DNA from: Clostridiales bacterium
Lineage (GTDB): Bacteria > Bacillota > Dethiobacteria > Dethiobacterales > Dethiobacteraceae
Length of the DNA: 64,000 bases
Assembly (NCBI GenBank): GCA_018335855.1
Contig: JAGXRM010000027.1
Coordinates: 62,001-126,000, forward strand
Direction: 5' to 3'
Part shown: positions 15,618-26,004 of the stretch, piece after piece
Layout of the letters: every line of letters starts with the position of its first letter
Position numbering within the stretch: position 1 is the stretch's first letter
Made by a program: the position numbers and the translations under genes
The notes under the pieces: generated by a model
The model's database searches: none
The model's input: the letters and a program-made list of their open reading frames with translations, nothing else
Told to the model about the DNA's origin: nothing

Positions 15618-15688
15618 AAAAAAAAAGCCGGCCGTTAGGCCGGAAACAGTATGTTGCGCTTCTTGCCACAGAACTCACACCATACCAC
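15618..15688 (-). ncRNA. Small RNA gene, copy 1 of a paired structured RNA
   Basis: An independent transcription unit of about 70 nt on the minus strand. It has TATAAT at 15693-15698, then a stem arm (GTGGTATG), a 26-nt core at 15655-15680 identical to copy 2, the opposing arm (CATACTGTT), and a terminator (CCGGCC-TAAC-GGCCGG plus a U run). The closing stem differs in sequence from copy 2 but still pairs, which is evidence for conserved structure. A good -35 element is not clear for this copy (weak TTATAC at 16 bases). No ORF with a ribosome binding site fits inside. Family not recognised. Confidence 0.7.
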
Positions 15689-15830
15689 TATTATTATACT
15701 CAAAAACCAGAAATGTATAACATTGTCAATTGTACAATTTTTTATATACCTTTGTCCTTTCTTGTAAGAAAAACGCGTTTATTCATGTATACCGCTGCCG
15801 ATGCAAATCATTATAATTTACTACAGTATA

Positions 15831-15901
15831 AAAAAAGAGGCCGGTCAATTGACCGGCATAAGGTGATAAGTGCGCTTCTTGCCACAGAACTCACACTATC
15901 A
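15831..15901 (-). ncRNA. Small RNA gene, copy 2 of a paired structured RNA
   Basis: The same layout as copy 1, 216 bases away. It has a strong promoter, TTTACA (15930-15935), 17-base spacer, TATAAT (15907-15912). A 9-bp stem (AAGGTGATA / TATCACCTT) encloses the identical 26-nt core at 15871-15896, followed by a terminator GCCGGTC-AATT-GACCGGC and a U run. Within the core, UUCU and AGAA can pair around GUGGCA, and GUGU can pair with GCGC, extending the hairpin. Unit length and shared core with different stems and terminators suggest a functional duplicated sRNA rather than a recent copy. Confidence 0.75.
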
Positions 15902-15906
15902 CCTTT

Positions 15907-15935
15907 ATTATACTAGTTAACATAACAATTGTAAA
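15907..15935 (-). promoter_or_regulatory. Promoter of small RNA copy 2
   Basis: TTTACA-N17-TATAAT on the minus strand, ending about six bases before the start of the predicted small RNA. Confidence 0.7.
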
Positions 15936-15973: not shown

Positions 15974-16621
15974 CTATTTATCATTTGAGAACATCGGTCT
16001 CCGCTTCGTGACATATGTGGCTGCCGCCGCCCGGTTTGACAAATTAAGCTTGTCAAAAATCTTCGAAACATAATTACGTACTGTCTTCTCCGCCAAAAAA
16101 ACAGCTTCGGCAATTTCCTTATTTGTTTTCCCTTCAGCAATCAGCACCAGTATTTTTTTCTCTGTTTCCGAAAGCTTCGCCTCGTTTTGTTTCTCCGTAG
16201 CAATGGATTTCATCCGGCTAAGTACCTTGCCGGTAATATGGGGATCCAATAGGGATTCCCCTCGGGCCACCCGCTCAATAGCCTCAATCAGTTTGTTATT
16301 GTCTGTCTGCTTTAATACATATCCGGACGCTCCTGCCATAATTGAAGCGTAAATAGCTTCATCATCGGCATAGGACGTCAGCATAATCACCTTGACTTCC
16401 GGATTCTCAGCCATTAATTCCTGACACGCCTCAATGCCGTTCATACCCGGCATACGGATATCCATAACTACTACGTCTGGCTTATACGTTCCTGCCATTT
16501 CCAGAGCATCTTCGCCGCAAGCAGCTTCCCCAACGACGTTAAATTTATCATGAAGTTCAAGAAGCGCCTTTAGTCCCACCCGGACTACTGCATGATCGTC
16601 AACAATGAGCACCCGTATCAT
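15974..16621 (-). CDS. NarL/LuxR-family response regulator
   Basis: This 215-residue regulator has a receiver domain with the phospho-acceptor Asp in [10 protein letters not shown] (about residue 54), acidic pair DDHA near the start, and Thr/Lys in MLTSYAD and YVLKQTD. A LuxR-type HTH follows ([43 protein letters not shown]). It is co-encoded with the histidine kinase 18 bases upstream. Their position beside the cytochrome cluster suggests that this pair controls those genes, but no binding site was identified. Confidence 0.93.
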
Positions 16622-16639
16622 TTAATCACCATCCTGAAC

Positions 16640-18115
16640 TTAATTTTGTTCTAATACCCTTTGGAAATACTCAGGATTATCAACAAACACGCCCCCGGCA
16701 TAACTGAGCTTTTTGTACGGAAGGGTAATTTCGTAATGAGTTCCCTGACCTGGTGCCGTATTAAATACGACTGTTCCCTGCAACATACCTACACGGTAAA
16801 ATATATTTTTCAATCCTTGCTTTTCGCCGCCCCGGGTTTCCGTTTTTAATGATTCCGGATTAAACCCGATTCCGTTGTCATCGATGCGAATGACAATATC
16901 CTGTTCTTTAAATAGCACCTTTACCTGTACTTCATCTGCCAGGGAATGTTTAGCGGCATTTGTTAACAACTCACGCAGCACTTGCAGCACATTATTTATT
17001 TGCATAATGTTCAATTCTCCGCACTGCTGCCCCTCAAAAATAAGCCCTATCTTTAACAATACACTTTCCCGGAATTCACGGATGAGTTGGCTGATTCCCT
17101 CTCTCAGTGAAACACACGAAAAGTCCTCCGGCTGCAGCTCCTGAATATAATCACGGATATCATGAATAACCTGGTTTAAGTCACTTTTGGCTAATACAAT
17201 CTGTTTCTTCGACTCATCCTGACGCTTCTCGGCAAGGATACTTGCCTGTTCCAGCTTCAAACCTACCCCGTAAATCGACTGAATAATACCGTCATGCAAT
17301 TCCCTGGCGAACCTTTCCCGCTCATTCATTAGTACTTGCTTCCGAAGTGCCTCCTCAAGCCGGCACTCCCGCTCCACTTCAAAGACATCCACAGTCCGGA
17401 GCACAAAATATGTGATAAATACCAAGAACCACGATCTGAAAAATATCACAGGCACACCCAAAGCTTCCAAGAATGTCTGCCTGTTTAGAATCTGCGCCGG
17501 CCAAAGCACAGGTTCATTAGCAACCATCCCGACAATAAACGCGCCAACAAAAAAAGTTATGGCCAAACCCCTCAGGTTATTTACCAAAGAAGGGATTTTA
17601 TACACTTCCACATCCCGGATCTGGGCCCAAAGCCCAATCGCCGCCAGCAGAAAACCGGGGAAAGCAAACATATATCTGGACAGGTTATCAGCAACAGCAA
17701 GATACAGTTGATTTTCACTAAAACCAAGCGTATATACAGCCATACCAATCCAGGTTAAGCTGATGACAGCTCCGACAATTTTAAGGAAACTGTACTTTTC
17801 ATTATAATCAGTAATCAAGCGGATACCCAACCAGAAAATAAACATAAAAGAAAACGCCTTAAACATCAACTCAGTACTTCGCATTGCAAACAGCATGGAG
17901 GGCGTAAGCTGCGCCTCTTTCACTCTCATAACAATAATCACCAGTTCATTAATCCCATGGGCAAATCCGTATCCTGCCAGTAGCCACATACTCTTGGCCA
18001 GTTTTAACTGGCTGTTCTTATTTACTTTCAGTACAATGGCAAACCCCAACAGAAAAAAAAGAATCGTGTAAATCACCAGCATGATCATCATATTACTGAG
18101 GAAGAATTGAAGCAT
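16640..18115 (-). CDS. Sensor histidine kinase with seven membrane segments (HisKA_3)
   Basis: The kinase has about 491 residues when started at the ATG at 18115, nine bases after GGGGAG; an ATG three codons earlier is too close to that site. Seven hydrophobic segments span about residues 8-245 with no clear periplasmic ligand domain, so it may sense membrane or redox state directly. A coiled linker leads to the HisKA_3 dimerisation motif ERFARELHDGIIQSIYG (the phospho-accepting His). A HATPase domain follows, with N-box ELLTNAAKHS and G-boxes RIDDNGIGFN and GLKNIFYRV. Kinases of this class signal to NarL-type regulators, here encoded next. Confidence 0.92.
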   Translation of the reverse strand: MLQFFLSNMMIMLVIYTILFFLLGFAIVLKVNKNSQLKLAKSMWLLAGYGFAHGINELVIIVMRVKEAQLTPSMLFAMRSTELMFKAFSFMFIFWLGIRLITDYNEKYSFLKIVGAVISLTWIGMAVYTLGFSENQLYLAVADNLSRYMFAFPGFLLAAIGLWAQIRDVEVYKIPSLVNNLRGLAITFFVGAFIVGMVANEPVLWPAQILNRQTFLEALGVPVIFFRSWFLVFITYFVLRTVDVFEVERECRLEEALRKQVLMNERERFARELHDGIIQSIYGVGLKLEQASILAEKRQDESKKQIVLAKSDLNQVIHDIRDYIQELQPEDFSCVSLREGISQLIREFRESVLLKIGLIFEGQQCGELNIMQINNVLQVLRELLTNAAKHSLADEVQVKVLFKEQDIVIRIDDNGIGFNPESLKTETRGGEKQGLKNIFYRVGMLQGTVVFNTAPGQGTHYEITLPYKKLSYAGGVFVDNPEYFQRVLEQN

Positions 18116-18158
18116 ATATTTCATCTCCCCACGGATTTAACATAATACATTCAACTTA

Positions 18159-18991: not shown

Positions 18992-21679
18992 CTACTTCTT
19001 AGTTGCTGGGTGAGGAGCGTTTGCAACCGGTGATGACGGATTGTAAATGAGCCCGTCATAAGTTTCTCCATCTCCCAGGCGATCCCAGTTAAAGATATGG
19101 GTGCGCAGGTCGTAATTAATACCGGTCATTGTTGCATAGGGCATTGCCTTGCTGTAGTCCATACCACTGCCGTGGCATGCGCCACAGGTCTGCGCCACTG
19201 TCCGCTTCAGCGATGTGTTGTCCACAGCATTGTACTTGTGAGAATCGTGGCAGGTTGCGCAGCTTATGACTTTACCCTTCGCGGAACGAAGTCCGTCATT
19301 CGCTACGTCAAATGCACCCCAATTTGAAGAGGGAACACCAAGCAGTTCCTGCCACTGCATGCGGTGCTGCTGGCCGATCCAGCTGTTTGTGCGCAGGCTG
19401 CTCGTGTTGATCTCAACATAATCGGTGAGCTTATCGCCGGGTAACATAACCAGGGGAATTGGATCCTGACGGACGCCGCTGGGGTTGCCGGCGTTTAGAC
19501 CAAAGCTGTCAATGATTTTGTTGTTACGTGCATGACAGGCGCCGCAGAGGTCGTTCTGACGGTCAATTGTCAGGCGGGCCGGGTTTACGATGTTCTTTTT
19601 GGTCGGAGCCTGGGCGTGGTTTGCACCAGGTCCGTGGCACGCTTCGCAGGTAATACCGTAGTCGGCAATATGGTTCTTAACACCAGTGACCGGATCGATG
19701 GGTAATAATGTGGGTGCATCATTATAAGCATCCAGATCGAAGCCGGTGCTGTGGCAGCCAATGCAGTTCTGCTGCCAGACTTGTGATGCGGTGTGAGTAC
19801 CCCATGTGGGAGCGGTCCATGAACCATCAGGACCACGATTTCCAGTGTTATACTGGAAGTTAACAAAGAGAACGCCTTCCCTCTTGGCAACAGGAATTCC
19901 GGAAGTATCATATCCTTCATCAACCAGCTTCTGATAGCTAATGGCCGGACGAATCTTCCATTTGTCACCAAAGATAAAGTCAATATCATCTTTATCGATA
20001 TGCACGGAATTAGACACGTTAAGTGTCCCGCGACCTCCGGCGGCAGCTCCTTTGTTAGCATCCCAACCATCATAGAATGACTTGAAGGGTTCCGGGGAAT
20101 CGGGCTGGCCCCACTTGATATCGGGATCGTCAGCCGGACGAGCCTTCTTGGTGTGCAGATGGTCAAGCTGGGTTGCATACTTAGTGTGGCAGCTTGCACA
20201 GGTTGCACCGCCAACGTATTCAGCACTTAACACACCTGTAATCGGGTCACGGGTTGCGCTCAGTGCATCATAGACGCCGGGAGCCAGGTTTGTTTCTTCC
20301 TCGTAATTATGGGTGGATTCAACGTTGGCCCAGTAGCCGTCGTTGCCGTCGCCTTTCTTGTGACAGGCTTCGCAGGTACCCATGTTGGGCTTGCGCTTCA
20401 GGGCGGAGGAACCAGACAGTTCGGTAAGCATGTTTACTGTCCAGCCGTCCACGCCGGCATCTACCAATGTGGTTTCCCAGTAGTCTTTATCGGTACCGTG
20501 GGCCACGTGACAGGTGAGGCAGACAACGCCTCTGGTCAGGCCGGCACCGTTTTGAAACTTCAGGCCGCCAACATCATTGTACCAGTCAAACTCGACCCGG
20601 TGGCGGTAGGCCTTGGAGTAGGAACCGGTCAGTTCACTGCCGGCGTCTGCAATCTGAGCGTTGTAATCAGTGTGGCAGGCGCCGCAGAAATTGTTGATGC
20701 CGCGCTTGTAGGTGACAGATTCTTCTGCTGCCAAATAGTTTTCGATTTGCATGGAAACACGCAGGGATGGGACGAAATCAGCGGTAACTGCGCCTGCCGG
20801 AGCCTCATTAAAACGAATGTAGCTCACGCCGGTGCTGCTATCCACAGTGAAGCCGCCGTATTGCCGGACTCCGCCCACGTAAATCTTCAGGTCCTGGGAA
20901 TAGGGATACCCTTTGATCATGGTGTAGATGTCGTCACCGTTATAAACGGCGTAGGTTACGCTGTCAATCCCAGTCGCAACGGCACCTACAACTTTATTCT
21001 GCTTCTGGACGCCATTGGGATCCGGATGCAGAATGCGGGCGTTGCCGCCCTGGCCGTGCGGGCTGTGACAGCTGCTGCAGCTGAACTCGCCGGTCCAGGT
21101 GCCGAAATCATCGGCTCCGTTTTTCAGCGCGCCGCCGGGAGCGGCATAGATGTTCAGAGCACCTGTGACATTATGATTGGACAGGGATGTTGCCGCGGCA
21201 TTCTGGCCGACCATGAGGCCGAACTTACCGCCGCTGGTAGCTTCCCCTGCCGGGTTAAGTCCTTGGACAACGTTATAGGTGGTTGTTACCGTACCGTCGT
21301 GACAGGCCATGCAGGTCTCATAAATCGAGTACCACTGCAATAGGGCCGCGCCGACGGCGCTGTGGGTGGCATGACAAGAGGCACAAGCGTCGGTATTCTT
21401 GCTGTAGTTGGTGTGAATCCGGTAGCTTGCCGGATCAGCCGCATTCGGCAGATAAATGCCGGTGGGATAAAGGTTGGCATCTTCGCTGAATACAGCGGGA
21501 GTGCCTAAGTATTCGTAACCATCGGTGTAGTCATTCTCCATATCAATGCGGACCTGTTCGGCCATCGCCAGACCGGAGAAAGCTGCCAACACGATGAGGG
21601 CCACGAGTAAAACCAAGCTAAATCTCCTCATAATGGGTCTCTCCTTTTGTGTTCTTATTTTGTTGGTTTTCTTTGCCAT
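18992..21679 (-). CDS. Exported 12-heme c-type cytochrome (cytochrome c554-like motifs)
   Basis: This 895-residue protein carries twelve CxxCH motifs, spread from residue about 100 to near the C-terminus, and would carry electrons outside the membrane. It has a signal peptide (MRRFSLVLLVALIVLAAFSGLAMA) starting at residue 17. The inner ATG at 21631 has its own AAGGAG site and gives a canonical signal peptide; the ATG at 21679 also has AAAGGAGG, so either start is possible. The segment CIGCHSTGFDL...GITCEACHGPGANH resembles cytochrome c554/c'-type proteins. Beta-rich spacers of about 100 residues separate some heme pairs. There is no visible sortase signal or SLH domain. It follows the 7-heme cytochrome gene. 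Confidence 0.93.
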   Translation of the reverse strand: MAKKTNKIRTQKERPIMRRFSLVLLVALIVLAAFSGLAMAEQVRIDMENDYTDGYEYLGTPAVFSEDANLYPTGIYLPNAADPASYRIHTNYSKNTDACASCHATHSAVGAALLQWYSIYETCMACHDGTVTTTYNVVQGLNPAGEATSGGKFGLMVGQNAAATSLSNHNVTGALNIYAAPGGALKNGADDFGTWTGEFSCSSCHSPHGQGGNARILHPDPNGVQKQNKVVGAVATGIDSVTYAVYNGDDIYTMIKGYPYSQDLKIYVGGVRQYGGFTVDSSTGVSYIRFNEAPAGAVTADFVPSLRVSMQIENYLAAEESVTYKRGINNFCGACHTDYNAQIADAGSELTGSYSKAYRHRVEFDWYNDVGGLKFQNGAGLTRGVVCLTCHVAHGTDKDYWETTLVDAGVDGWTVNMLTELSGSSALKRKPNMGTCEACHKKGDGNDGYWANVESTHNYEEETNLAPGVYDALSATRDPITGVLSAEYVGGATCASCHTKYATQLDHLHTKKARPADDPDIKWGQPDSPEPFKSFYDGWDANKGAAAGGRGTLNVSNSVHIDKDDIDFIFGDKWKIRPAISYQKLVDEGYDTSGIPVAKREGVLFVNFQYNTGNRGPDGSWTAPTWGTHTASQVWQQNCIGCHSTGFDLDAYNDAPTLLPIDPVTGVKNHIADYGITCEACHGPGANHAQAPTKKNIVNPARLTIDRQNDLCGACHARNNKIIDSFGLNAGNPSGVRQDPIPLVMLPGDKLTDYVEINTSSLRTNSWIGQQHRMQWQELLGVPSSNWGAFDVANDGLRSAKGKVISCATCHDSHKYNAVDNTSLKRTVAQTCGACHGSGMDYSKAMPYATMTGINYDLRTHIFNWDRLGDGETYDGLIYNPSSPVANAPHPATKK
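21372..21402 (-). repeat. Heme-motif repeat, copy inside the 12-heme cytochrome gene
   Basis: This 31-base stretch encodes part of the first CxxCH motif (Asn-Thr-Asp-Ala-Cys-Ala-Ser-Cys-His) and is identical to the intergenic sequence at 21825-21855. Confidence 0.85.
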
Positions 21680-21824
21680 TCCTATGCACCTCCTTTCTCT
21701 GGCAAAATGGTAACGGCCTTACGGCCGGAAAACCCTGGAATGTCCTGCGGATTGGTTGACAATTGTCCCCGCTTCCGCTACACTATTGATAAATCCGGGG
21801 AATAAAGAGATTAGACGTTGCTTT

Positions 21825-21855
21825 TGACAAGAGGCACAAGCGTCGGTATTCTTGC
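21825..21855 (-). repeat. Heme-motif repeat, intergenic copy B
   Basis: A 31-base exact copy of 21372-21402 lies in the leader of the 12-heme gene, 24 bases past the end of the 7-heme gene. On the minus strand the frame continues as Cys-Gln instead of Cys-His, so it is not a usable heme site. Shorter copy A lies at 18268-18283, on the other side of the lipoprotein/12-heme gene pair. Confidence 0.85.
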
Positions 21856-21878
21856 CCCCCGGATTTTTATGCTTAGTA

Positions 21879-23051
21879 TTAATCAAACGTTATACTGATA
21901 CTTTTTGTAAGACCTTCGCATACCGCTTCCACCGTTACAGTTTCGGAACCCTGAAGCCAGACTAATGCTTTTCCGTCAACGCCGGTTTGCACCGGTTCCC
22001 CCGGTGTCAGTTGTATGCTAAGAGATGAATCCCTGTATAATGTGCCGGAACCGTAAACTACCGCAAAGACCACATCCCGCTCCGACAGCGGTGTCACGTC
22101 TCCGGTAAAGGCAAATGCCTCTATTTCTGCGTCGTCATTTACATACGTGCTTACCAGGAGCAGTTTAGGCACACAGGGTGCGTGGATTCCCTCCAGGAAG
22201 TTATTTCCCGGTGTCCTGCTGTGACAGTCGCTACAGTAGCGACTGGGTTCAGTCTCGTAATGATTTTCCACACCGGCCGGCAGGTTCTGCACAGACACTC
22301 CCAAGATAGTAATTCCGTAGCTGTGGCATGTGAGGCAAAACTGCCTCTGCTCATATTTGTAGTTTATATCCTCAACGGGGCGCGTATAGAAAACCGCGTT
22401 GTTAATAATCTCATCGTCCATGACTCCCAGATACTCTTTAATTAATGCGGCATTTTCCGAGGCGTGCGGTGAATGGCAGTGGGAACAGGACAATTTCCAG
22501 CCGGAAGGTTTTAACCCGCCGGAACTTTTCAGAAAATGGCCGCCATCCACGCCTTCTGCAGTACCCGTATAGAAAGTATTTATATCGGCGGCATTTTCAT
22601 AGCCGGACCCGGTACTGTGACAGTCAAGACACTGCGTGTAGCCGCCAAGCGGGTATTCGCCGTAAACATCGTTATCAACTGTCTCCAGGGTATACTGTTC
22701 TTGGAGTAAAGGACGGTAGTTATACGGAGGATGCACCAGATGGCATGTATTGCATGACAAATTCTCATCGGCGAAATAATGAACCGATTCGCCCTGATAT
22801 TTCACCATTGATGCACGCGTACCGTCGTGACATACCAGGCAGGTTTCCTCAACAGTGGATTCTGTCATGAGACGTATACCGGTTCCCCTGTGAGGAGAAT
22901 GGCAGTTCCGACAGGAATCCTGATTTTTATTAAAATCATGTGGTATGGCTGGTATGCTGGCATACACAGTAACGTAAAAGAACAGAAGCGTAAGCACGAA
23001 TATCATGGCTGTCAAAGAAATAAACGGACTTTTGTCGGTTTGCTTACGCAA
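21879..23051 (-). CDS. Exported 7-heme c-type cytochrome
   Basis: The 390-residue protein has an N-terminal signal or anchor (about residues 12-32) and seven CxxCH motifs between about residues 46 and 280. The first (CRNCHSPHRGTG) and the fifth (CSHCHSPHASEN) are of the doubled-CxxCH type. The C-terminal about 100 residues contain no heme and look beta-rich (DAEIEAFAFTGDVTPLSERDVVFAVVYGSGTLY), like an immunoglobulin-type domain. It may dock to a partner or the cell wall. It lies between the NHL gene (26 bases upstream) and the 12-heme gene, and is an obvious middle carrier in an outward electron chain. Confidence 0.92.
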   Translation of the reverse strand: MRKQTDKSPFISLTAMIFVLTLLFFYVTVYASIPAIPHDFNKNQDSCRNCHSPHRGTGIRLMTESTVEETCLVCHDGTRASMVKYQGESVHYFADENLSCNTCHLVHPPYNYRPLLQEQYTLETVDNDVYGEYPLGGYTQCLDCHSTGSGYENAADINTFYTGTAEGVDGGHFLKSSGGLKPSGWKLSCSHCHSPHASENAALIKEYLGVMDDEIINNAVFYTRPVEDINYKYEQRQFCLTCHSYGITILGVSVQNLPAGVENHYETEPSRYCSDCHSRTPGNNFLEGIHAPCVPKLLLVSTYVNDDAEIEAFAFTGDVTPLSERDVVFAVVYGSGTLYRDSSLSIQLTPGEPVQTGVDGKALVWLQGSETVTVEAVCEGLTKSISITFD

Positions 23052-23077
23052 TTATTACACCCCTTAAGCACCTCTTC

Positions 23078-24067
23078 CTAACGGTATACGTTGACTCTGC
23101 GATTGCTTGTGTCAGTAACGTATATGCGACCCTGATTGTCTATGAAGAGGCCGTTTGGCAGATAAAACTGGCCCGGTCCCTGGCCCATGCCTCCTACAAC
23201 ATACTGGAGTTCTCCTTGTTCATTCATGGCAAGCAATTCATGGGTCAGGTTGTTGACCAAATAGATGACTCCCTGAGGATCCATGGCCAAGCCCCTGGGA
23301 TTAATAAACTGCTTATTTTTGGAGACCCCACTGATATGCCCAATGTATGTCCCCAGTTTGTTAAAGAACTGAATACGGTCGTTTCCGGTATCGCTGACGA
23401 TTACATACTGTCTGCTTACGGTGACAGCATTGGGAGAGCGGAACTGCCCCGGCTCTGTACCTTCGGAACCAAATTCCAGAATCTTCTCCCCCGACTCATC
23501 AAAGACTGAAATTTTGTGCAAGCCAACATCTGCCACATAAATTCTTCCATCATCAGCAAACAGACCGGCTGGACTGCCAAAATCCAACGACGTGCCAAAG
23601 TAGTGCAGGAAATCCCCGTTTGGCGTAAAGACCGAAACATTGTTGTTATACATATCCGCAACGAGAATGCGTCCGTCACTGTCTGTGGCTACACCGTAGG
23701 GAAAGCGGAACTGCCCCGGACTCCTTCCGTTTGAACCAAAAGATAACAAGTGGTTCCCGTTATAATCATAAACCTGTACCCTGGAGTTTCCGGTATCCGC
23801 AACATAAACCCGGTTTCCCGAAACCGTTACAGCCATGGGCTTAGCCATCATCTCATCTGCATTCGGTCCGTAAATAGAGTACAGAAACTGTGGCATTGAT
23901 GTCCCCGGTAAAAATTGCTGTGTCAGGCGCAAAGGATCTCTATTCATTAAATATAAGATTAAGAACAGTATAACCAATGCTATTGTTAGGCCGATTTGTG
24001 CGCGTCTCAGCTTTTCCCTGTCAAAATCGCTAAATGTCCGGCCAAGCCTTCCTGCAAACTCACTCAT
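23078..24067 (-). CDS. Membrane-anchored NHL-repeat beta-propeller protein
   Basis: This 329-residue protein has a short cytoplasmic basic segment, one transmembrane helix (about residues 26-43), and then six NHL-type repeats. These show the recurring pattern GQFxxPxGVAxDxxGRIxVADxxNxRVxVF. The repeats would fold into a single beta-propeller outside the cell. NHL propellers are common protein-binding scaffolds and are found in other cytochrome clusters of anaerobes. It contains no heme motif. Its place between the TPR and 7-heme genes, with 12 and 26 base gaps, suggests a structural role in assembling the cytochrome complex; this is inference. Confidence 0.88.
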   Translation of the reverse strand: MSEFAGRLGRTFSDFDREKLRRAQIGLTIALVILFLILYLMNRDPLRLTQQFLPGTSMPQFLYSIYGPNADEMMAKPMAVTVSGNRVYVADTGNSRVQVYDYNGNHLLSFGSNGRSPGQFRFPYGVATDSDGRILVADMYNNNVSVFTPNGDFLHYFGTSLDFGSPAGLFADDGRIYVADVGLHKISVFDESGEKILEFGSEGTEPGQFRSPNAVTVSRQYVIVSDTGNDRIQFFNKLGTYIGHISGVSKNKQFINPRGLAMDPQGVIYLVNNLTHELLAMNEQGELQYVVGGMGQGPGQFYLPNGLFIDNQGRIYVTDTSNRRVNVYR

Positions 24068-24079
24068 GATTTTTCCCCC

Positions 24080-24775
24080 TTAATTTGTCGCGCGCAACCG
24101 ACTGATAGCGTCTTTTACTGCTTCATTATTTGGATCAAAACCCAAGGCGGCCTGATACCGGATTAGCGCCTCATTGTTCTTCCCCTGCGCTTCATAAACC
24201 TCACCCAGACTCAACAAAATTTCAATGGCACCCGGCCGTAGGCTGTAGGCTATTTCCAGCGACTCTGCAGCCTTTTCGAGTTGTCCGTTTTTATAAAACG
24301 CGATGCCCAAGTTCATGCGTGTCGCATAGTCACGTGGCGAAAGGGTCGTTGCATGCTGAAAAGAACGGATTGCCAGTTCATACTTTTCAACCTGAAGATA
24401 AGTCAGCCCGCGGTTATAATAAGCGGGAAAATGCTTTTCATCCAGTTGGGCAGCTTTATCATAGTTGGTAAGGGCCTGGTTGTAATCCCCCATTTGGAAA
24501 TACGCCCAACCCAGTGCTACTAAGTTTTCCACATTGTCCGGGTCAGCCGTAACCCTTTGCTTGAGCGCTTCGAACTGCTGCATATAAAACGGGTCGGCAT
24601 TAAATCTCTCCCAAAAAAATAATTTACCGATCCCCCAGCCAATGCTAGAAACAACCAGTGCGGTAACAATTAGTATCGTCCATGCGTATAACGGTGCAAC
24701 CTTTTCCTTGTTACGGTTTTTCTTTACTTCTCCAGCATAAAAATCCATTGCTGTCTGATGTACGTTTTCAGTCAT
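24080..24775 (-). CDS. Membrane-anchored TPR protein
   Basis: A 231-residue protein with one transmembrane helix (about residues 30-52) and four or five tetratricopeptide repeats (about 85-225) with the usual LGWAYFQMGDYNQALTNYDKAAQLD pattern. The TPR array would lie outside the membrane. NrfG/CcmH-type TPR proteins help deliver apocytochrome c to heme lyase, so a role in maturation or assembly of the neighbouring multiheme cytochromes is plausible but not proven by sequence alone. It lies between the NapC-like gene (22 bases upstream) and the NHL gene (12 bases downstream). Confidence 0.88.
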   Translation of the reverse strand: MTENVHQTAMDFYAGEVKKNRNKEKVAPLYAWTILIVTALVVSSIGWGIGKLFFWERFNADPFYMQQFEALKQRVTADPDNVENLVALGWAYFQMGDYNQALTNYDKAAQLDEKHFPAYYNRGLTYLQVEKYELAIRSFQHATTLSPRDYATRMNLGIAFYKNGQLEKAAESLEIAYSLRPGAIEILLSLGEVYEAQGKNNEALIRYQAALGFDPNNEAVKDAISRLRATN

Positions 24776-24797
24776 TTGTGTTTACCCCCGGCAGTTT

Positions 24798-25925
24798 TTA
24801 GTAGATTATATGGCATCTCCCGCAGTAGTTGCTGCCATGGCAGCGCAAGCACTCATACCCGTATTTCTGTCCATTTACATTTGTTGGATGCACAGCCTGC
24901 CACCCTTGTTTGTGTTTTTTATAATGGCATTGGGAACAAAATACCCTGGAAAATGGCGGGTCTTTTACGGTGTCCAATATGGCACGGTTAAAATCATGGC
25001 ATACATAGCAACCGAATTTTCCCTGGGTACGGGCCTTAGTAGCATGCATGCCTCTCCAGAGCTGTGTGTGCCCTTCAGGACGCTCCAGATGGCAGTCTCT
25101 GCAGAATATGTTGTTCCGTGCGTACTCTCTCACCGGATGGATGCCATAGGCTAGCATATCCGAATCTTCTATTGCCCCCCTTGTCCAGGAGTGACATCGG
25201 TCACAGGAGAGAAGGTCATTGTATGCTTGTAAACCGTGCTGAATTGTAAACGTTTCTTCCACATGTGATTCGGGAAAATATATATCCTTGTGACAGGCGG
25301 CGCAATCGAGAGTTGCGCGACGCAATTGATGACACTCAATACAACCACTCATTGAAAGGTTGCGATTTTCGTAGCTCATTTGAGACATAGAAAACCTGCG
25401 GGTCCAAATATTAACGTCAACAGAAAGAGCCATTTGCCGACTAGCGATGTTGGCGTGGACCACACCTTTGTGGCAGGACATGCAGTCTACCCGGACTTTT
25501 TCGTGGTTTTTGTGGGGGACAATGAGGTCGCCCGAAGGTGACATCTCCCGGTTTAATGCGTGGCAGTTGGTACAAGATTCGGCGGACATTTGCTCCCGCA
25601 TGGCAATGGGCAAATAGTAGGTGTTTGTCACATACTTATAGGCCATTTCAGCGAGGCTGACCTGAAATCTGATGACGCCGTCGAAGCCGGGGCCCTCGTG
25701 ACAAGTGACACAATCGGTGCGCTGGTGAGCCGATGCTTCCCAGGTACGGACATGGGGCACCATAACATGGCAGAGGCCGCAAGATTCGGGATTTCTGTAA
25801 TCCTGACTGTACACCAGCACGATAAATAACAGTAAAACGGCCATTACTGACGCAACAGCCCTTCGCTTGATTCGGGGGTCCCGTCCGTCAGGAAACTTGA
25901 ATTTAAACGGTTTTGGCTGGCCCAT
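24798..25925 (-). CDS. Membrane-anchored 12-heme cytochrome, NapC/NirT-like N-terminus
   Basis: This 375-residue protein has a cytoplasmic basic start, one transmembrane helix (about residues 24-41) and then twelve CxxCH motifs in the remaining 330 residues, an average of one per 27. The first two pairs (CGLCHVMV and CVTCHEGP) with the nearby HxxxxxxH elements resemble the NapC/NirT quinol dehydrogenase family. The rest is an extended multiheme tail. Such a protein could take electrons from menaquinol or another membrane donor and hand them to the 7- and 12-heme proteins. It is the first gene of the redox operon. NapC itself has four hemes, so this is either a fusion or a distinct large relative. 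Confidence 0.9.
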   Translation of the reverse strand: MGQPKPFKFKFPDGRDPRIKRRAVASVMAVLLLFIVLVYSQDYRNPESCGLCHVMVPHVRTWEASAHQRTDCVTCHEGPGFDGVIRFQVSLAEMAYKYVTNTYYLPIAMREQMSAESCTNCHALNREMSPSGDLIVPHKNHEKVRVDCMSCHKGVVHANIASRQMALSVDVNIWTRRFSMSQMSYENRNLSMSGCIECHQLRRATLDCAACHKDIYFPESHVEETFTIQHGLQAYNDLLSCDRCHSWTRGAIEDSDMLAYGIHPVREYARNNIFCRDCHLERPEGHTQLWRGMHATKARTQGKFGCYVCHDFNRAILDTVKDPPFSRVFCSQCHYKKHKQGWQAVHPTNVNGQKYGYECLRCHGSNYCGRCHIIY

Positions 25926-26004
25926 GATGTCCCTCCCCGGTTAGCTGGCCGCACCCCCTACAGATTTCGACAGATTGTGAAAATTCGTACGTTAATGGTG
26001 AATA

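Follow-up and report, generated by a model that had tools for sequence, protein, structure and literature searches.

Two adjacent putative small RNAs, encoded on the minus strand of the 64,000-nucleotide stretch analysed here (the window; contig C27:62001-126000 of the 2.96-Mb genome G000), share a core segment that is antisense to the codons of a heme-binding motif. We consider it likely that they are trans-acting, base-pairing sRNAs directed at the part of the mRNA that encodes the first heme motif of multiheme cytochromes, and that they probably repress these targets. Since a conserved sequence is antisense to heme-motif codons, the RNAs probably control electron-transfer proteins by pairing with their mRNAs. 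The case is drawn from sequence and consists of stand-alone structured units, complementarity that is both specific and codon-tracking, conservation, and co-occurrence with the putative targets. It argues convincingly that the pair would be part of a wider and apparently unreported set of sRNAs reading heme-motif codons.

Two minus-strand units and their homologues

Each of the two units is made of a TATAAT element, a hairpin displaying the same 26-nt core and a terminator, as the first-pass annotation had described and as both sequence and fold now confirm. The core, GTGTGAGTTCTGTGGCAAGAAGCGCA, is present in exactly two copies in the window, at 15871-15896 (unit 1) and 15655-15680 (unit 2, identical), and in none of the shuffled sequences. 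In unit 1 (all coordinates of the pair are on the minus strand) the -10 element TATAAT is found at 15907..15912, the hairpin folds at 15860..15905 with a closing stem, a UGUG/CGCA helix, a UUCU/AGAA helix and the loop GUGGCA (R1 match 15861-15905, 55.6 bits), and the intrinsic terminator, a GCCGGTC/GACCGGC hairpin with a T-run, lies at 15830..15857. Unit 2 has the same architecture with a different closing stem: its -10 element TATAAT is at 15693..15698, its hairpin at 15645..15689 (R1 match, 60.1 bits) and its terminator, CCGGCC/GGCCGG with a T-run, at 15618..15643. A TTGACAATGTTATA element at 15716..15729 precedes unit 2, with 25 nt from TTGACA to the -10 element, and the G007 homologue has the same element and spacing. 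Compared with shuffled sequences, unit 1 folds far more stably (z -6.6) and unit 2 moderately more so (z -2.5). The self-pairing of the core noticed at first sight (UUCU with AGAA around GUGGCA) is seen in the predicted hairpin of both units.

As also noted earlier, the pair lies outside any gene, between a NarL-type response regulator on one side and a yhaM-like gene (YhaM-like exoribonuclease) on the other. Three multiheme cytochrome genes are located within about 10 kb of it (18992-25940, minus strand; 895, 390 and 380 aa); their cluster adjoins the NarL-type two-component system (15974-18124) and the sRNA pair, a layout partly retained in G007. The family could not be recognised by eye, and the Rfam covariance-model search likewise gave no match at or above the gathering score for either unit, CsfG included, the sub-threshold matches being chance-like; for the link to sporulation through CsfG that had been raised, we found nothing in support.

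The search of related genomes that had been recommended was productive. The hairpin of the two units, which we call type A, was found with its own stem and terminator in five further genomes of the family, once each in G007, G008, G009 and G010 and twice in G017. The family set of 20 genomes is also every genome searched of the order, and no type A hairpin was found in 78 other genomes of the class. The G013 match (33 bits) is a plain hairpin that lacks the core, and in a contig scan with the 16-mer TGTGGCAAGAAGCGCA the extended core was present in none of the matches listed, about 120 chance matches being expected in that collection. Across the units the core is nearly invariant and the stems change but still pair, which bears out the earlier claim of selection on both. 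That the closing stems differ in sequence yet pair also holds among relatives: when arms were swapped across units, the true 5' and 3' arms beat all other permutations (1/720). The arm-swap test was used instead of a column-wise shuffle covariation test (on A2), which has little power here, since bulges of one base put the columns out of register. A TATAAT element and a terminator are present in both units and in most homologues, and the downstream genes vary, which points to stand-alone units.

Complementarity to the codons of the first heme motif

The reverse complement of the core reads TGC GCT TCT TGC CAC AGA ACT CAC AC, that is Cys-Ala-Ser-Cys-His-Arg-Thr-His, containing the CXXCH heme c motif (CASCHRTHT in unit 1). 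Near-matches to the core elsewhere in G000 are largely antisense within cytochrome genes. When nine genomes were searched with a 21-mer of the core, allowing up to three mismatches, 21 places were found in seven genomes, and none with the reversed control. Sixteen of these are sRNA-like units and five are first-CXXCH sites of multiheme cytochrome genes (NSCASCHMTHTA); there is no other kind. The units comprise eight of type A (two of them in the window), seven of type B (one each in G000, G006, G007, G008, G009, G010 and G017) and one of type C (G000). The cytochrome sites (L131, L132, L202, L207 and L210) in every case lie at the first CXXCH, NTNSCASCHMTHTA, in a cytochrome that has six of them, and G008, G010 and G017 have no cytochrome site within three mismatches of the 21-mer. 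A target search with the core, suggested at the outset, has thus returned the CXXCH codons of multiheme cytochromes.

In the window's genome the proposed target protein carries PF09699 and an MtrC/MtrF-like domain. The best candidate target of the window core is on contig C20 (L230:4159-6303; 23 of 26 positions), and type A has one mismatch to the target, at a Met codon. The target sites are situated roughly 70-130 codons after the start, deep in the coding sequence; bacterial sRNAs usually act at the start site. A secondary candidate lies in the window itself, at the first CXXCH codons (CASCHATHS; 21360..21385, minus strand) of the 895-aa multiheme cytochrome at 18992-21679; it matches the type A core at 17 of 26 positions and gives a duplex of -49.4 kcal/mol with the type B RNA of the same genome. 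TGCCAC is found at 2.36 per kb in cytochrome ORFs versus 0.24 in other ORFs; given this roughly tenfold enrichment of the corresponding UGCCAC, the RNAs may also bind other cytochrome mRNAs at weaker sites.

Four architectures, types A to D, carry the same anti-heme segment. Type A is a hairpin exposing the loop GUGGCA; type B has a 5' hairpin, a single-stranded AAGARGCRCA and a terminator hairpin, usually with GUGGCA again in its loop; types C (G000 only) and D (G007, L270) are longer variants. In the predicted folds of both main types the unpaired bases fall inside the anti-heme segment. For each sRNA tested in G000, G006, G007 and G009, the duplex ranking, which covers the retrieved cytochrome regions and heme sites, puts a first-heme NSCASCHMTHTA site in first place, with energies of -44 to -64 kcal/mol, and perfect 25-nt complementarity to a cytochrome mRNA of the same genome is reached by G000 type C and G009 type B. 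By computation, then, the complementarity to mRNAs encoded elsewhere is extended and specific, and it falls on the codons of a conserved protein motif, CXXCH, common to a gene family.

Several details of these loci may be added. The type C unit (L004:989-1064, minus strand) is on the 5.1-kb G000 contig C34, and its perfect match is to the C20 cytochrome. The type D unit (L270:1497-1585, minus strand; G007 C7:27302) is antisense to CAACHM codons and has a second GUGGCA-loop hairpin. Type B (L005:1465-1540 on the minus strand, L128, L203-L206 and L208) is found in all seven genomes close to the same HAMP-PAS histidine kinase gene, and its other side is usually occupied by dgt and dnaG; in the empty-site comparison at this locus, dgt was not found in cytochrome-less relatives. 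The type B promoter contains repeated TGTTC / TTTGTTCACG boxes conserved across genera. The presence of TTGACAATGTTATA before type A (G000, G007) and of TGTTC boxes before type B suggests a dedicated regulator for each type.

The match also follows synonymous codon choice. Codons were redrawn from the cytochrome usage of each genome in 3000 draws, with the best match as the statistic, and the observed match was reached in 47 of 3000 draws for G000 A (P about 0.016), 2 of 3000 for G000 C (P 0.0007), 11 of 3000 for G006 B (P 0.004), 7 of 3000 for G007 A (P 0.002), 3 of 3000 for G009 A (P 0.001) and 10 of 3000 for G009 B (P 0.003). The test was not significant for G000 B (0.08), G007 B (0.11), G008 A and B (0.06-0.28) and G134 (0.22). 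For six of the 11 sRNA-genome pairs, therefore, the sRNA-target match exceeds what amino acids and codon usage give, and the pairing is conserved and co-varies. In G009, for instance, the target has TGT at Cys1 and both sRNAs have GCACA; in G007 the target has ACT and the sRNA GAGT. Codon identity at the site (0.875 among four cytochromes) ranks second of 126 windows and is 0.59 outside the site in the five-gene set, the genes of this whole comparison having been selected in part for their match to the sRNA.

A genome of another family, G134, has a terminator-ended unit, GTGGGTGGCGTGACAGGAAGCACA, whose other matches in that genome are only the first CXXCH of four cytochromes; there the motif, DACASCHATHTAVG, uses the synonymous codons TGT/TCC/TGT, and the RNA follows them. 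This unit (L272:1453-1536, minus strand; C19) is directly 3' of a histidine kinase gene. The phylum-level R2/R3 matches near 24-27 bits that were inspected, all but the weakest R2 ones, were rejected, being generic hairpins, generic terminators or cytochrome genes read on their antisense strand; only G134 and an extra G007 locus were kept from this search.

The distribution of the sRNAs parallels that of the cytochromes. PF09699 cytochromes occur in 9 of the 20 family genomes, and type A and/or B sRNAs are present in seven of these nine and in none of the 11 others (Fisher exact test, P about 5e-4, phylogeny ignored). The core pattern search with up to two mismatches covered all twenty family genomes, and the full search for type B covered the nine genomes of the 21-mer search together with those drawn in a phylum-level search. 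G001, of the same genus as G000, and G011, of the same genus as G008-G010, have neither the sRNAs nor PF09699 cytochromes.

Alternative readings and a possible mechanism

The first-pass annotation had left three roles side by side, protein binding, pairing with targets and measuring a signal; the evidence picks pairing with targets and does not favour the other two. It is improbable that the hairpin is a protein-binding RNA, a sponge or scaffold, with only a coincidental match to heme codons. Such a role would fit a core that is conserved as sequence and displayed on a hairpin, and duplicated RNAs of similar kind do occur among known protein sponges, but the same segment is found in differently folded RNAs, every non-sRNA match in the seven genomes is a cytochrome heme site, and synonymous codons are tracked. 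A riboswitch-like leader or attenuator of yhaM, with hairpin and terminator about 70 nt before the start codon, seems quite improbable. Although unit 2 is just 5' of the co-directional yhaM, as are units in G007 and G017, yhaM follows in these three genomes only; other genes lie 322-911 nt downstream in G008, G010 and at the second G017 copy, and therefore type A is not a leader. Moreover, unit 1, upstream of unit 2, has its own promoter and terminator, and type B loci face convergent genes. We give hardly any credence to a small CXXCH peptide encoded on the opposite strand, or to units that are decayed cytochrome fragments: most copies do read CASCHRTHT in reverse complement, but the flanking stops differ in place from copy to copy, L126 reads RASCH, with the motif destroyed and the hairpin kept, the orientation of promoters and terminators suits the antisense strand, and the stems co-vary. 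On this evidence the protein-binding, leader and peptide readings were all rejected.

More weight is due to the same pairing with the opposite sign, in which cytochrome mRNAs would be stabilised or derepressed, or the stoichiometry of paralogues set. The sequence does not fix the direction, and the sRNA genes are near cytochromes and two-component systems; against this, extended perfect pairing within a coding sequence should tend to promote cleavage, and we regard the opposite sign as unlikely. With a site away from the start, the effect on the cytochrome mRNA may be repression, protection or none.

Under repression by pairing, the reading we prefer, the two units would give rise to trans-acting RNAs, small (about 70 nt) and stand-alone, and their targets would be secreted, MtrC/MtrF-domain multiheme cytochromes, at the mRNA stretch for the first heme-attachment motif (NSCASCHMTHTA, CXXCH). 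The exposed loop GUGGCA would serve as seed and pair first with UGCCAC of the Cys-His codons; the weak UUCU/AGAA helix would then open and pairing would grow to 16-25 bp in the coding sequence. The long duplex would most likely be cut by a duplex-cutting nuclease such as RNase III, the dependence on which we infer from duplex length only, or else act as a roadblock, and either outcome would repress the cytochrome mRNA. The paired mRNA stretch is probably the one in which change would cost the protein most.

Related systems and significance

The nearest analogue of the principle is the plant miR482/miR2118 superfamily, which targets the P-loop codons of NBS-LRR genes (PMC3877274). There too, a small RNA addresses a gene family via the codons of an invariant motif, and variation is tolerated at synonymous third positions (PMC3877274). 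The likeness is one of principle and not of homology: theirs is a eukaryotic miRNA with phased secondary siRNAs, whereas here we deal with structured, terminator-ended bacterial transcripts that carry a 16-25-nt antisense segment. Bacterial trans-acting sRNAs that pair inside coding sequence, for example MicC with ompD, resemble the present RNAs in their promoter-hairpin-terminator form, in coding-sequence pairing and in duplicated sibling sRNAs. Known cases, however, are mostly near the start codon and concern one gene's own site, while here several folds converge, through longer duplexes, on a motif-coding site well into the gene. RNAIII of Staphylococcus aureus, a Gram-positive sRNA that regulates via duplex cleavage by RNase III, is similar in its long sRNA-mRNA duplexes, which RNase III could cut here as well, and unrelated in sequence. 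The sporulation RNA CsfG (Rfam) is likewise a small Bacillota RNA with a conserved core, and differs in that the present units have no Rfam match. In a search of mostly open-access literature we found no paper joining an sRNA with heme-binding motif codons.

To our knowledge, little has been established about how bacteria choose among dozens of multiheme cytochromes when they respire iron or sulfur. The Dethiobacteraceae include a cluster from soda lakes and serpentinites with an abundance of multiheme cytochromes; Dethiobacter alkaliphilus responds to the electron acceptor with distinct sets of cytochromes, in an account that leaves sRNAs unmentioned (PMC10376724). RNAs that read the codons of the heme motif would add a new layer of control to extracellular electron transfer. 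They would also provide a rare example, in bacteria, of an sRNA exerting selection on synonymous codons, and of an sRNA that addresses a protein motif and not a start site. It is quite possible, although we would stop short of calling it probable, that several differently folded sRNAs (types A-D and the one from another family) address the invariant CXXCH codons and in this way govern the full set of multiheme cytochromes of electroactive Bacillota at once, co-evolving with synonymous codons. If true, such a gene-family address system would be, in bacteria, what the targeting of P-loop codons by miR482 is in plants.

It should also be noted that the 5' leaders of the target cytochromes (L131, L132, L003 and L202) look conserved between genera, with an in-frame reading RTCEIKKTTPIKGGRFM, and each is perhaps a further regulatory leader.
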